Shown one piece after another: positions 60,209 to 64,000 of a DNA stretch of 64,000 nt; position 1 is the first letter of the stretch, and each line of letters begins with the position of its first letter. A program made the position numbers and the translations under genes. The stretch comes from Herbiconiux sp. SALV-R1. GTDB lineage: Bacteria > Actinomycetota > Actinomycetes > Actinomycetales > Microbacteriaceae. The DNA is taken from the NCBI RefSeq assembly GCF_013113715.1, contig NZ_CP053344.1, positions 806,001 to 870,000 of the forward strand. The letters run 5' to 3'. The notes below the pieces were generated by a model. The model made no database searches, had not been told where the DNA came from, and worked only from the letters and a program-made list of their open reading frames with translations.

Positions 60209-60285
60209 TGGGGTGAATAACGGGACTCGAACCCGCGACATCCGGCACCACAAGCCAGCGCTCTACCAACTGAGCTATATCCACC
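60209..60285 (-). tRNA. tRNA-His (anticodon GUG)
   Basis: A complete cloverleaf on the minus strand: acceptor GTGGATA pairs with TATTCAC (one G-T wobble), the anticodon loop is TTGTGGT, and the T arm is CGGG-TTCGAGT-CCCG. The features specific to tRNA-His are present: an encoded extra G at position -1 (60285) and discriminator C73. CCA is encoded (60209-60211). A TAGACT box lies upstream on the minus strand (60327-60332). Confidence 0.96.
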
Positions 60286-61306: not shown

Positions 61307-61329
61307 ACCCGGCGCCAGAGGCGCCGGGT
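61307..61329 (-). terminator. Terminator of the interrupted tRNA-Thr gene
   Basis: ACCCGGCGCC and GGCGCCGGGT form a perfect 10-bp stem with a 3-base loop. Read on the minus strand it lies 18 bases beyond the tRNA-Thr 3' end and is followed by CTTCTC. This shows that the tRNA fragment still has its native downstream flank. Confidence 0.75.
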
Positions 61330-61347: not shown

Positions 61348-61388
61348 TGCCCCTGGCTGGATTCGAACCAGCGACAAACGGATTACAA
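61348..61388 (-). other. 3' fragment of tRNA-Thr (UGU): attachment site and left end of the element
   Basis: On the minus strand, bases equivalent to tRNA positions 33-73 are intact: loop TTGTAA with anticodon TGT, stem strand TCCGT, a 5-base variable loop, T arm GCTGG-TTCGAAT-CCAGC, acceptor strand CAGGGGC and A73. The 5' half is missing: upstream bases neither pair with TCCGT nor contain a GCCCCTG acceptor strand. A break in the anticodon loop is a classic crossover place for tyrosine integrases, so this is read as one end of an integrated element. The intact tRNA should lie at its far end. Confidence 0.78.
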
Positions 61389-61424
61389 CCGCGCAGGTTC
61401 GACGCCGGTGGTCACCCTCAGCAC

Positions 61425-61787
61425 CTACCGTGCCGCGTCGGGACGCTGACTCTGTTCCCACTCCGGCGCCAGCCCATGCGCCAGCTCATCCGTTCCCTCC
61501 CGGCCTCTGCGGGAAAGCTCATCCAGAAGCAACCTGGTGGGGACGAACTTCAGTCGGTTCTGGACGTCCCGCTGCACGTCGTCGATGCTCATGATGCCGG
61601 CGCAGACGAGACCTACCACGATGTCGGCGTTGTAAGCGCGGGCACACTCGACCACGGCTCGGGCGGGGGGTCGGTTTGTCCGGAACCACGTGGAAACACT
61701 TGTCGGGCTCGCACCAATTTTGGACGCCACAGAGCGAACGGATTCTCCTCCTGACGCCTGGTCGACCCATTCGCGCCAAGTGATCAT
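61425..61787 (-). CDS. Small HTH immunity-repressor-like protein
   Basis: A 120-residue protein beginning MITWREWVDQASGGESVRSV, with an HTH about residues 17-38 (VASKIGASPTSVSTWF). The following PPARAVVECARAYNADIVVGL is typical of repressors of temperate actinobacteriophages. It is divergent from the integrase across 145 bases that should hold the switch promoters, including a CCCC...GGGG inverted repeat (61804-61817). Its stop codon lies 36 bases from the tRNA-Thr fragment, so the attachment site is just behind the repressor 3' end. Role in lysogeny is inferred. Confidence 0.78.
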   Translation of the reverse strand: MITWREWVDQASGGESVRSVASKIGASPTSVSTWFRTNRPPARAVVECARAYNADIVVGLVCAGIMSIDDVQRDVQNRLKFVPTRLLLDELSRRGREGTDELAHGLAPEWEQSQRPDAAR

Positions 61788-61932: not shown

Positions 61933-62811
61933 TTGCAACATGACACACCGCGACTGCATCTCGTTTCCGCACTCGACTTCTGGGAGTCCTACCTCAAAGC
62001 AGAGGGATCATCCGAGGGGTCAATCCGGCAACGTCTCATCCTGCTGCGCGCGCTCGAGCGACGTGCAGGGAAGCCGCTAGCTGAGATCACGCGACTGGAT
62101 CTGATCACCGACCTGGGTAGGACAGGGCTGTCCGCAAGCACCAGGGCGAACTACAAGAGCCTGTACCACACGTTCTTCACGTGGATGCAGGATGAGGGTC
62201 TGAGGCCCGACAACCCGGGGGCGCGCCTCCCGAGAGTGCGGCTCGCGGCGGTGGAAGCGAACCCCACCAGCACCGACGACATCCAGGTTCTCCTGAACAG
62301 CGGTATCTACGCGCGGACGAGGATGTTCGTGCTGATCTACGCCTACCAGGGGTTCAGGGCTCAGGAGATCGCTGCCGTGCGTGGCGAGACGATCGACTGG
62401 CAGAACCGGCGCATCCTTTCGAAGGACGGCAAGGGTGGCAAAGAGGTATGGAGGCCCATCCACGAGATCGTATGGGAGGAGCTGCAGAAGTACCCCAGGC
62501 GGGGTTTCCTGTTCCCGTCGCCATACCGTGAGGGCCAGCACGTGACCGCTCGCAACGTGTCGAACGTGCTCGGGAAGGCCATGCGTCGCGCCGGTATCGC
62601 TCACCGGCCCCACCAGATGCGGGCCTGGTACGCGACCGAGATGATCGACGGGGGAGCCTCCACGGTGGTCGTGGCGGCTGCAATGAGACACGCAGACATG
62701 CAGTCCATCCAGCACTACGTGCGCGTCTCAGACGAGTCCATCGCCGCCGCCCACGACCTTCTCCCGCGGGTAGTTGTTCCATCGAAGTCAGGACGGCGTA
62801 GGGCTGCGTAG
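61933..62811 (+). CDS. int: Tyrosine-family integrase
   Basis: Site-specific recombinase of 292 residues. An N-terminal SAM-like core-binding domain (about residues 10-95) precedes the catalytic domain. The catalytic residues are Arg-142 (QGFRAQE), a Lys in the beta-hairpin (KDGKGGK, 165-170), His-227 and Arg-230 (HQMR), His-253 (MRHADMQ) and the nucleophile Tyr-262 (QHYVRV), so it looks active. The TTG start follows GGGGGAAAG. It is transcribed away from the tRNA-Thr fragment. It most likely catalysed insertion into tRNA-Thr. Confidence 0.92.
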   Translation: MQHDTPRLHLVSALDFWESYLKAEGSSEGSIRQRLILLRALERRAGKPLAEITRLDLITDLGRTGLSASTRANYKSLYHTFFTWMQDEGLRPDNPGARLPRVRLAAVEANPTSTDDIQVLLNSGIYARTRMFVLIYAYQGFRAQEIAAVRGETIDWQNRRILSKDGKGGKEVWRPIHEIVWEELQKYPRRGFLFPSPYREGQHVTARNVSNVLGKAMRRAGIAHRPHQMRAWYATEMIDGGASTVVVAAAMRHADMQSIQHYVRVSDESIAAAHDLLPRVVVPSKSGRRRAA

Positions 62812-62827
62812 TACCCTTTCGTGGGTA

Positions 62828-62903
62828 GCCTCCGTAGCTCAGTGGATAGAGCAGCAGCCTTCTAATCTGTCGGTCGCGAGTTCGAGTCTCGCCGGGGGCA
62901 CCA
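62828..62903 (+). tRNA. tRNA-Arg (anticodon UCU)
   Basis: Acceptor GCCTCCG pairs with CGGGGGC (one T-G wobble), D arm GCTC/GAGC, anticodon loop CTTCTAA, T arm GCGAG-TTCGAGT-CTCGC, A73 and encoded CCA. The anticodon stem is weak: G27-T43 is a wobble and C31 opposite T39 does not pair. It reads AGA, a rare codon in high-GC hosts, and lies inside the element just after the integrase. Element-encoded origin is likely but a captured host gene cannot be excluded. Confidence 0.88.
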
Positions 62904-62921
62904 TGCCCCACCAACGCCTGA

Positions 62922-62960
62922 AAGCCCCGCACAGGCCCGTCTAGGGCTCGTGCGGGGCTT
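62922..62960. terminator. Long hairpin after tRNA-Arg
   Basis: AAGCCCCGCAC and GTGCGGGGCTT form a perfect 11-bp stem, with a second inner stem GCCC/GGGC. It can terminate both the tRNA (plus strand, followed by CTG) and the converging lipoprotein gene, where AAGCCCC...GGGGCTT is followed by TCAGG. Confidence 0.75.
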
Positions 62961-62972
62961 CTGCGTGACGGA

Positions 62973-63422
62973 CTAGTTAAGGCAATCTTGAGATTCGAGC
63001 ACACCGGGAGTTGCAGCGTCGAGTCCGCTCGGTTCGAACGTTGAGAACGTCTCGGCGACAGCCTCAGCGGTCTGGTATGGGACAGCTTCCTCGGTAGATG
63101 GGTCGCGCACAGTGAACCACACACCTACCGCCGGATCATCCTCGAATCCCGGAGCGGTGAACGACGCGGCCACAAACCACGATCCGTCGGTGGCAGAGAT
63201 AGCTGCGATGTCGACTATGGAAGTACCCAGTTGAACGCCATCGAGACCTCGCTGGACTCCCTCTCGAGCGCCATCTGTGACGTCGAGGCAGGTCACGGCG
63301 TCGGTGGGCGTCGGGTCCGGCGGTGGTCCCGGGATTGGACGAGAGCTCGGCAGCGCGCATCCAGTGAGCACGAGAACAGATGCGATGCCGCACGCCGCGA
63401 AGGCGCTTCCCCTGCGATTCAT
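62973..63422 (-). CDS. Predicted lipoprotein of the integrated element
   Basis: A 149-residue protein with a basic N-terminus, hydrophobic core and lipobox LTGC (Cys-22), so it should be lipid-anchored outside the membrane. A Pro-rich linker (PSSRPIPGPPPDPTPTD) leads to a small domain with TDGSWFVAASFTAPG, VGVWFTVRDPS and a C-terminal ESQDCLN. Two further Cys (about 44 and 147) could form a disulfide. I do not recognise the family. Lipoproteins near phage integrases sometimes act in superinfection exclusion; here that is speculation. Confidence 0.75.
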   Translation of the reverse strand: MNRRGSAFAACGIASVLVLTGCALPSSRPIPGPPPDPTPTDAVTCLDVTDGAREGVQRGLDGVQLGTSIVDIAAISATDGSWFVAASFTAPGFEDDPAVGVWFTVRDPSTEEAVPYQTAEAVAETFSTFEPSGLDAATPGVLESQDCLN

Positions 63423-63495
63423 GCGCGCGAGCTTATCGGTTCTGCGTCCGATCGGGCGAGCTTATATCCGGCACTTTGAAGCTGTGGGCTAATGC

Positions 63496-63906
63496 CTAAG
63501 CGGCGGCGAGCTCAAACGGCTGCGGGTGAGTCGCTTCGGCGGCGCCGGTGGATAGCCGGAAGGTGGCGGAAGAGACGCCTTCATGCTTCTTGAAGTACGC
63601 CTCGATGTCAGCGACTGTGCCGTTCTCTTCGAGGGTGACCGGCAGCTGCGCGATGTTGCCATTGCGGGTGGCTTCGGTGCTCATCACGATGACCGCCTGC
63701 GGATGCGCCTCGCCGTGCGAGACGAAGACGGTGGCCGTGCCACCCAGCGAGCGGATGGCCGTCATGACAGTGGATATCCGATCTCCGGGGAACGCCACGA
63801 GGAACGGCTTGCGACCCGCTTCGTTCACGTAGATCGGTGCTTTCACCTGGGCGAGAGCACGCGCAAGAGACGCCGTCAGCTTCCGCCGGTTCGATTCATC
63901 TGCCAT
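63496..63906 (-). CDS. Unrecognised small protein of the integrated element
   Basis: A 136-residue soluble protein without signal, membrane segment or known motif. It begins MADESNRRKLTASLARALAQ and has alternating strands and helices (AGRKPFLVAFPGD, TVMTAIRSLGGTATVFVSH, DIEAYFKKHEGVSSATFRLS). Its ATG lies inside the last codons of the upstream gene (11-base overlap), so the two are translated together. A candidate for an accessory or regulatory phage protein; no function is claimed. Confidence 0.68.
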   Translation of the reverse strand: MADESNRRKLTASLARALAQVKAPIYVNEAGRKPFLVAFPGDRISTVMTAIRSLGGTATVFVSHGEAHPQAVIVMSTEATRNGNIAQLPVTLEENGTVADIEAYFKKHEGVSSATFRLSTGAAEATHPQPFELAAA

Positions 63907-64000
63907 TTCGCCACATCATCTCGTGCTTCGACATGTCCTCCAGGATGCGGGAGTCAGACTCATAGTAGCCATCGTCTATGTCCTTCTGGCTAGAGATGAA
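63896..64000 (-). CDS. C-terminal end of an unrecognised gene, cut by the window edge
   Basis: On the minus strand a frame is open from the window edge to TGA at 63896-63898 and encodes 34 residues. They are acidic and polar (SSQKDIDDGYYESDSRILED, then MSKHEMMWRNGR at the end). The overlap of 11 bases with the next start codon supports its being a real gene in a tightly packed operon. Nothing can be said about its function. Confidence 0.55.
   Translation of the reverse strand, partial: FISSQKDIDDGYYESDSRILEDMSKHEMMWRNGR

Follow-up and report, generated by a model that had tools for sequence, protein, structure and literature searches.

A temperate phage of Herbiconiux that probably breaks and replaces tRNA-Arg(UCU) and shortens its own repressor in one crossover

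The window, a stretch of 64,000 nucleotides of the genome of Herbiconiux sp. SALV-R1, contains near its right end half of a tRNA gene, followed by an integrase gene and a complete second tRNA gene. The features of this region are as follows (window positions, except for the last).

61307..61329, minus strand: terminator-like hairpin of 10 pairs, downstream of the host tRNA
61348..61385, minus strand: 3' part of the host tRNA-Arg(UCU) (tRNA positions 36-73), orphaned at attL; 38/38 bases identical to the intact same-genus tRNA-Arg(TCT)
61380..61385, plus strand: attL core GGATTA (TAATCC on the minus strand), the 6 bp of strand exchange, from comparison of attB, attL and attR, with mismatches on both sides
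61386..61449, plus strand: first element bases, which across the excised junction would contribute the stop codon of a longer repressor and most of its final 21 codons
61425..61787, minus strand: second helix-turn-helix (HTH) ORF, between attL and the integrase (PHROG 5301 transcriptional repressor, E 9.6e-11; Pfam matches below cut-off)
61933..62811, plus strand: tyrosine integrase, 292 aa, ending GRRRAA (PF00589, 4.9e-20; PHROG_1 integrase, 1e-39)
62808..62819, plus strand: promoter-like stretch GTAGTACCCTTT, recognized by eye, upstream of the cargo tRNA and overlapping the integrase stop codon
62828..62903, plus strand: cargo tRNA-Arg(UCU) with encoded CCA (ARAGORN; Rfam tRNA, 65.1 bits)
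62904..64000, no strand assigned: remaining prophage within the window, continuing to C1:907769
C1:907764-907769, outside the window: attR core, matching the attL core

The minus strand of 61348-61388 reads as the 3' half of a tRNA gene, with unrelated sequence where the 5' half is expected, and ARAGORN called no tRNA gene at this broken copy. The initial annotation had recognized both the half gene and the terminator behind it, and both are borne out, but it had taken the gene for tRNA-Thr(UGU). When the broken tRNA was searched against 60 genomes (its own and 59 relatives), 14 of the 15 same-genus genomes matched at 98% identity, the matches starting at base 61388 (query base 13). Because the matched stretch is part of an intact tRNA-Arg(TCT) in all 14, the broken gene is tRNA-Arg(UCU). 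A threonine identity is rejected, since the tRNA-Thr(TGT) of this genome is intact at C1:371253 and has a different sequence. The anticodon region reads CTTCTAATCC in the relatives and GGTTGTAATCC at this locus; the UGU anticodon is only apparent, because its middle base derives from the element. Host origin is likewise certain for 61348-61385 alone, since 61386-61388 form the element side of the core; the 41-base tRNA segment originally delimited therefore stands as host sequence except for these three bases. A tRNA-His lies within the same fetched locus in 10 of the 14 matching relatives, and one lies nearby in the window at 60209-60284. None of the same-genus relatives has the same truncation, as was anticipated for an insertion: 14 of 15 have the native-type gene intact, and the fifteenth (G014) has at the same locus an intact tRNA-Arg of other sequence.

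The missing 5' half of the host gene is found 40.4 kb to the right, from C1:907804 downwards, and it too is broken. Alignment of both ends with the relatives gives attB as GGCCTTCTAATCCGTTTG, the left end as GCGGTTGTAATCCGTTTG and the right end as GGCCTTCTAATCCTTTTG, which confines the exchange to TAATCC (tRNA positions 36-41), flanked on both sides by mismatches. The element thus occupies C1:867380-907769, about 40.4 kb, and runs 37.8 kb beyond the window; its GC content is 65.1%, against 70.8% in the left 60 kb of the window. The earlier proposal that a tyrosine-integrase element entered through the anticodon region, and that it takes up the sequence from about 61385 rightwards and extends past 64000, was correct, but its far end was misjudged. 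Instead of an intact tRNA in which the last 41 bases recur, the far end holds the orphaned 5' half, and a second copy of the 41-base segment was not found in the genome (1 match when up to 3 mismatches were allowed over 33 bases). A 121-base query around the broken tRNA also gave 1 match in the 4.52-Mb, two-contig genome. Because the crossover lies within 6 bp, neither end rebuilds the tRNA and the 41-base segment stays unrepeated; the pattern typical of canonical restored-tRNA elements, a tRNA 3' end that is directly repeated and a tRNA left intact at one end, is absent here. A 22-bp repeat (95%) in the same region was set aside, as it lies in host sequence left of the tRNA.

Ten of the 64 ORFs predicted in the element were searched against PHROGs. 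Families matched were integrase, terminase, portal, major head, tape measure, major tail and anti-repressor, and three of the ten ORFs encode small repressor-like proteins. Because the tested ORFs match phage structural families, the element is a tailed-phage prophage, presumably an active one.

The cargo tRNA-Arg(UCU) starts 16 bases past the integrase ORF. The stretch GTAGTACCCTTT in front of it resembles by eye GTAGTACGCTTT, which is found upstream of host tRNA-Arg genes; a consensus scan upstream of the cargo tRNA found no sigma-70 site. Among the 46 tRNA genes of the two-contig assembly (found with the Rfam model and typed with ARAGORN), the cargo copy is the only tRNA-Arg(UCU) found intact, and within that set the broken host gene is therefore non-redundant. 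The host would accordingly be served by the complete tRNA at 62828-62903, provided that it is expressed. Since AGA codons are rare, though present (eight predicted host ORF stretches have 4 in 3765 codons, the predicted element ORFs 20 in 11797), we go no further than inferring that tRNA-Arg(UCU) is essential.

The cargo tRNA shares 60 of 73 positions with the broken host gene and 69 of 73 with the native-locus tRNA-Arg(TCT) of G014 (L146, G014:C1:2869083), and its source was therefore probably a related host lineage. The G014 gene, in this respect unlike those of the other 14 relatives, is either the donor of the phage gene or a native gene swapped for a phage-type copy. G011, besides its intact native gene, has another tRNA-Arg(TCT), also with CCA encoded (L152, G011:C9:316473).

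The rightmost ORF of the element (C1:907462-907770) encodes a repressor-like protein of 102 aa, whose TAG stop is completed by the host tRNA base beside the core (GAT-TAG). Read across the excised junction, the same frame encodes 123 aa. The sequence hallmarks of integration-dependent immunity, an attP within the repressor ORF and a shorter prophage form, are both present, and the two forms would be expected to differ in activity. The 102 residues are 64% identical over their whole length to the c1 repressor of Microbacterium phage Min1. Beyond the core, the protein from the Min1 phage genome continues KDYKAAVSDLTAYRAAKAAG and the predicted form of our element KDYNRAGSTPVVTLSTYRAASGR, so that the tail of the longer form resembles that of the Min1 repressor. 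Family searches gave a single Pfam match, below cut-off, and PHROG 4583 at 7.9e-7. The right core is also crossed by further long open frames in this element, in Microcella and in G132; open frames across a site are common at high GC. The second HTH ORF (61425-61787) was considered as the truncated repressor and rejected, because it stops about 40 bp short of the core and the exchange leaves it unchanged.

The arrangement recurs. In a first set of integrase relatives, tRNA-Arg(TCT) adjoins the integrase in 9 of 10 loci, which amount to about 8 distinct elements, 7 of them with the tRNA (L111 and L114 seem to duplicate L105 and L106; the present locus is L108); no tRNA-Arg was found in the remaining locus, L107, from an Arthrobacter MAG. 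A survey of the family found an integrase relative at E <= 1e-20 in 25 of 398 genomes, our own included. The cargo tRNA directly follows the integrase in five of these 25 loci (our own, G304, G028 and G400 with tRNA-Arg, G089 with tRNA-Lys), and in each a broken 3' half of the same isotype precedes the integrase. Both ends could be read in five cargo prophages: our own, G304, G028, Microcella (all Arg) and G089 (Lys); G400 is not counted, as its 5' half stops at a contig end right after TAATCC. In all five the cargo isotype equals that of the broken target, and in none is the tRNA rebuilt. The core of G304 is 15 bp, too short for the T arm. In four of five Arg pairs the cargo and broken tRNAs differ inside the 6-bp core, which, with so few Arg pairs, hints that cargo tRNAs tend to avoid their own core and thereby prevent self-recombination. 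Two or three tandem tRNA-Arg 3' halves lie by the left attachment site in G304 (L120, integrase on the plus strand; T arms at 1121, 1214 and 1281) and Microcella alkaliphila (L105; 4423 and 4487), and are perhaps scars of earlier integrations.

The repressor arrangement accompanies the cargo. In all five cargo prophages read at both ends, the repressor ORF stops at attR with GAT-TAG or GAT-TAA, and in four of the five (G028, G426, G304, G089) an HTH is found above the Pfam cut-off. The small HTH ORFs of G028, G304 and Microcella alkaliphila end GAT-TAG at the right end; in G089, where the target is tRNA-Lys(TTT), an HTH_3 ORF ends GAT-TAA, and its excised form would end ELAAA. Among isolated phages, GATTAC lies in frame inside the repressor gene in all three that were read (Min1, Cole and Gusanita), extending to GGATTAC in the repressor-like genes of Cole and Gusanita, both of which end AA. 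The Gusanita gene has a clear HTH by Pfam; the Cole ORF has no Pfam match, and its HTH was assigned by its annotators alone. The ssrA-like AA ending occurs in the longer repressor of four of eight sequences compared (G304, G089, Cole, Gusanita) and is absent from those of our element, G028, Microcella and Min1. Because only half have it, the route of repressor inactivation is uncertain.

Integrase relatives that carry no cargo behave differently. Larger regions were obtained for 11 of the 20 cargo-less loci (the other nine are G010, G099, G103, G127, G169, G224, G226, G237 and G366), and 10 of the 11 show a direct repeat, 23-90 bp long, that overlaps an intact tRNA (G315, G097, G133, G327, G419, G261, G272, G132, G319, G157), which we read as a restored or unharmed host gene. 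In G319 the two flanking tRNA-Thr genes are 92% identical; in the eleventh locus, G156, neither a repeat nor an attachment site was found. The association of cargo with lack of restoration gives a Fisher p of 3e-4 without G156 and 1.4e-3 with it, with relatedness ignored. An HTH ORF reads into the attachment site in four of nine cargo-less relatives (G419, G272, G261 and G132, by Pfam, G272 just below cut-off), and none was seen by eye in G315, G097, G133, G327 and G157. In G043, a genome from another family, a tRNA-Arg 3' half (L068, C6:85511) and an intact tRNA-Arg(TCT) that shares this 3' half (L080, C6:75476) lie 10 kb apart, as expected of what a restoring element would leave.

On a 32-row integrase tree, 13 cargo carriers (two of them identical) and 11 cargo-less rows are separated by 4 label changes, compared with a mean of 8.2 for shuffled labels, only 1 of 500 shuffles being as low as 4. 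The 11 cargo-less rows are the ten contrast loci, for which tRNA restoration was examined, and M. abscessus prophiGD11-2. G089, the Lys carrier, groups with G157 (support 93/82), which targets Lys, lacks cargo and has a 90-bp repeat; the pair stands apart from the Arg carriers, and this speaks for more than one origin. The rows of G315, G097 and G133, all cargo-less, fall among the Arg carriers, and gains and losses of the cargo tRNA cannot be told apart on this tree. The integrase C-terminus is AA in 17 of the 32 rows and in 10 of the 13 cargo carriers (GRRRAA in our element), which recalls a C-terminal signal for proteolysis that the accessible part of PMC4557955 describes in the integrase of BPs. 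The G304 element is about 17 kb, and six cargo-less ones (G315, G097, G133, G327, G261, G132) are 9.6-16.7 kb; the integrase module therefore also rides elements far smaller than the present prophage.

These sequence comparisons suggest, with good probability, that the element, a temperate tailed phage of 40.4 kb, disrupts and replaces tRNA-Arg(UCU) and truncates its repressor, combining tRNA-dependent lysogeny and integration-dependent immunity in one crossover. The phage is integrated in the anticodon region of the only tRNA-Arg(UCU) gene of its host, which is left as two dead halves, and the cargo tRNA-Arg(UCU) would keep the lysogen alive. Host tRNA bases supply the stop codon of a 102-aa repressor that is presumably stabilised or activated thereby. 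A single exchange would in this way destroy an essential tRNA, turn immunity on and make the host dependent on the prophage, and excision would reverse all three changes. The chances are about even for a broader proposal, that the coupled switch by 6-bp crossover arose at least twice (Arg-UCU and Lys-UUU) from tRNA-restoring phages with integration-dependent immunity, with a cargo tRNA that tends to differ in the core and hence escapes self-recombination.

It is possible, though rather unlikely, that only tRNA-dependent lysogeny operates here, the repressor frame in attP having no regulatory role and immunity coming from another gene. The HTH ORF at 61425-61787, which could be the real repressor instead, matches phage repressor families, and the longer form of the other repressor lacks the AA ending. 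However, a repressor in attP is a feature of all five cargo prophages read at both ends and of all three isolated phages read, always in the frame where the host gives the stop, and HTH ORFs reach the attachment site even in some cargo-less relatives, as described above. Two further explanations concern the tRNA itself. That the locus is an ordinary integrated element whose tRNA is rebuilt from element-borne 3' sequence, as the initial annotation had it and as is usual among the cargo-less integrase relatives, is hardly credible: no second copy of the 3' half was found in the genome, and the far end consists of the 5' half followed by unrelated sequence. A decayed or rearranged remnant, in which a restoring prophage was later damaged at its far end and the tRNA beside the integrase is accidental, would be compatible with the appearance of a single genome, yet it is very improbable, since one 6-bp core fits both ends, the arrangement is also seen with a second isotype and in genera other than this one, and isolated phages also have tRNA-Arg(TCT) beside or near the integrase.

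Each half of the combined switch preferred here has precedents. The cargo-tRNA mechanism of tRNA-dependent lysogeny is experimentally established for Fionnbharth and its relatives, and Guerrero-Bustamante and Hatfull (2024) treat clusters K4, K6, L, X, CQ2 and DL; the published cases, all Mycobacterium and Gordonia phages, involve Lys-TTT, Ile2-CAT and Leu-CAA with cores of 8-17 bp (PMC10865867 and its Table 2, from the accessible text). Our element has the same architecture (attB in a host tRNA gene, a tyrosine integrase, a tRNA on the phage, and a short core with no functional tRNA at attL or attR), but differs in its Arg-UCU target, its 6-bp core, its host family (Microbacteriaceae), a tRNA that adjoins the integrase and an attP that lies within the repressor ORF. 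In the main text of PMC10865867, a word search gave no occurrence of Arg, TCT or Microbacterium.

Published integration-dependent immunity systems usually rebuild the tRNA. Such immunity is described for clusters G, I, N and P, and the truncation mechanism is experimentally established for BPs, whose 136-residue repressor is unstable and whose 103-residue prophage form is active (PMC4557955, accessible text). As in the available account of BPs, attP lies in the repressor ORF, the prophage form is shorter (136 to 103 residues in BPs, 123 to 102 here), repressor and integrase are on the same strand, and a small divergent HTH (cro-like) gene is present; unlike BPs, our element has no evident degradation tag, and its exchange also destroys the host tRNA. 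In the accessible text of PMC10865867, the two systems are presented as different, and among openly licensed PMC papers it is the only one with both terms, 'integration-dependent immunity' and 'tRNA-dependent lysogeny'.

The nearest precedent for combined switches, as far as the available text goes, is M. abscessus prophiT36-2, where prophages with integration-dependent immunity lie at tRNA-Thr and a prophage tRNA-Thr is proposed to compensate for the impaired host tRNA (PMC9934374). That case, as described there, has two prophages in tandem, mismatches within a long core, and about 2 kb between the tRNA gene and attR, whereas ours is a single phage with a minimal core and a recurrent integrase-tRNA pair.

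Closer relatives are found among isolated phages: Min1 and the Arthrobacter cluster FF phages Cole, Gusanita and QuinnAvery encode a related integrase and, next to it or a short way off, a tRNA-Arg(TCT) (in Gusanita the distance is about 0.9 kb). In Min1 (EF579802), sequence comparison places an unannotated tRNA-Arg(TCT)-like gene directly past the integrase match (L115, 4709-4781), overlapped by the annotated integrase ORF, and in Cole and Gusanita (L116, L117) two tyrosine integrases flank the tRNA-Arg(TCT). The accessible text on QuinnAvery (PMC13097055) likewise places a tRNA-Arg(TCT) between two integrases, assigning it no role. Min1 is reported, in the text available, to be integrated in plasmid pMN1; no attachment site is described for Min1 or the cluster FF phages in the accessible literature, which does not include the original Min1 paper.

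Both switches are known separately, and one crossover doing both looks new: two lysogeny switches so far described apart would be joined in one recombination event. This would offer a reason why Min1-like and cluster FF phages carry a tRNA-Arg(UCU) gene by their integrase. The relation of tRNA-dependent lysogeny to canonical tRNA-restoring integration is left open in the accessible text of PMC10865867, and the cargo-less relatives, some with a repressor in attP, provide an evolutionary setting for it. Lysogen candidates of QuinnAvery have been isolated, according to the available text of PMC13097055, and these make the coupled switch directly testable.
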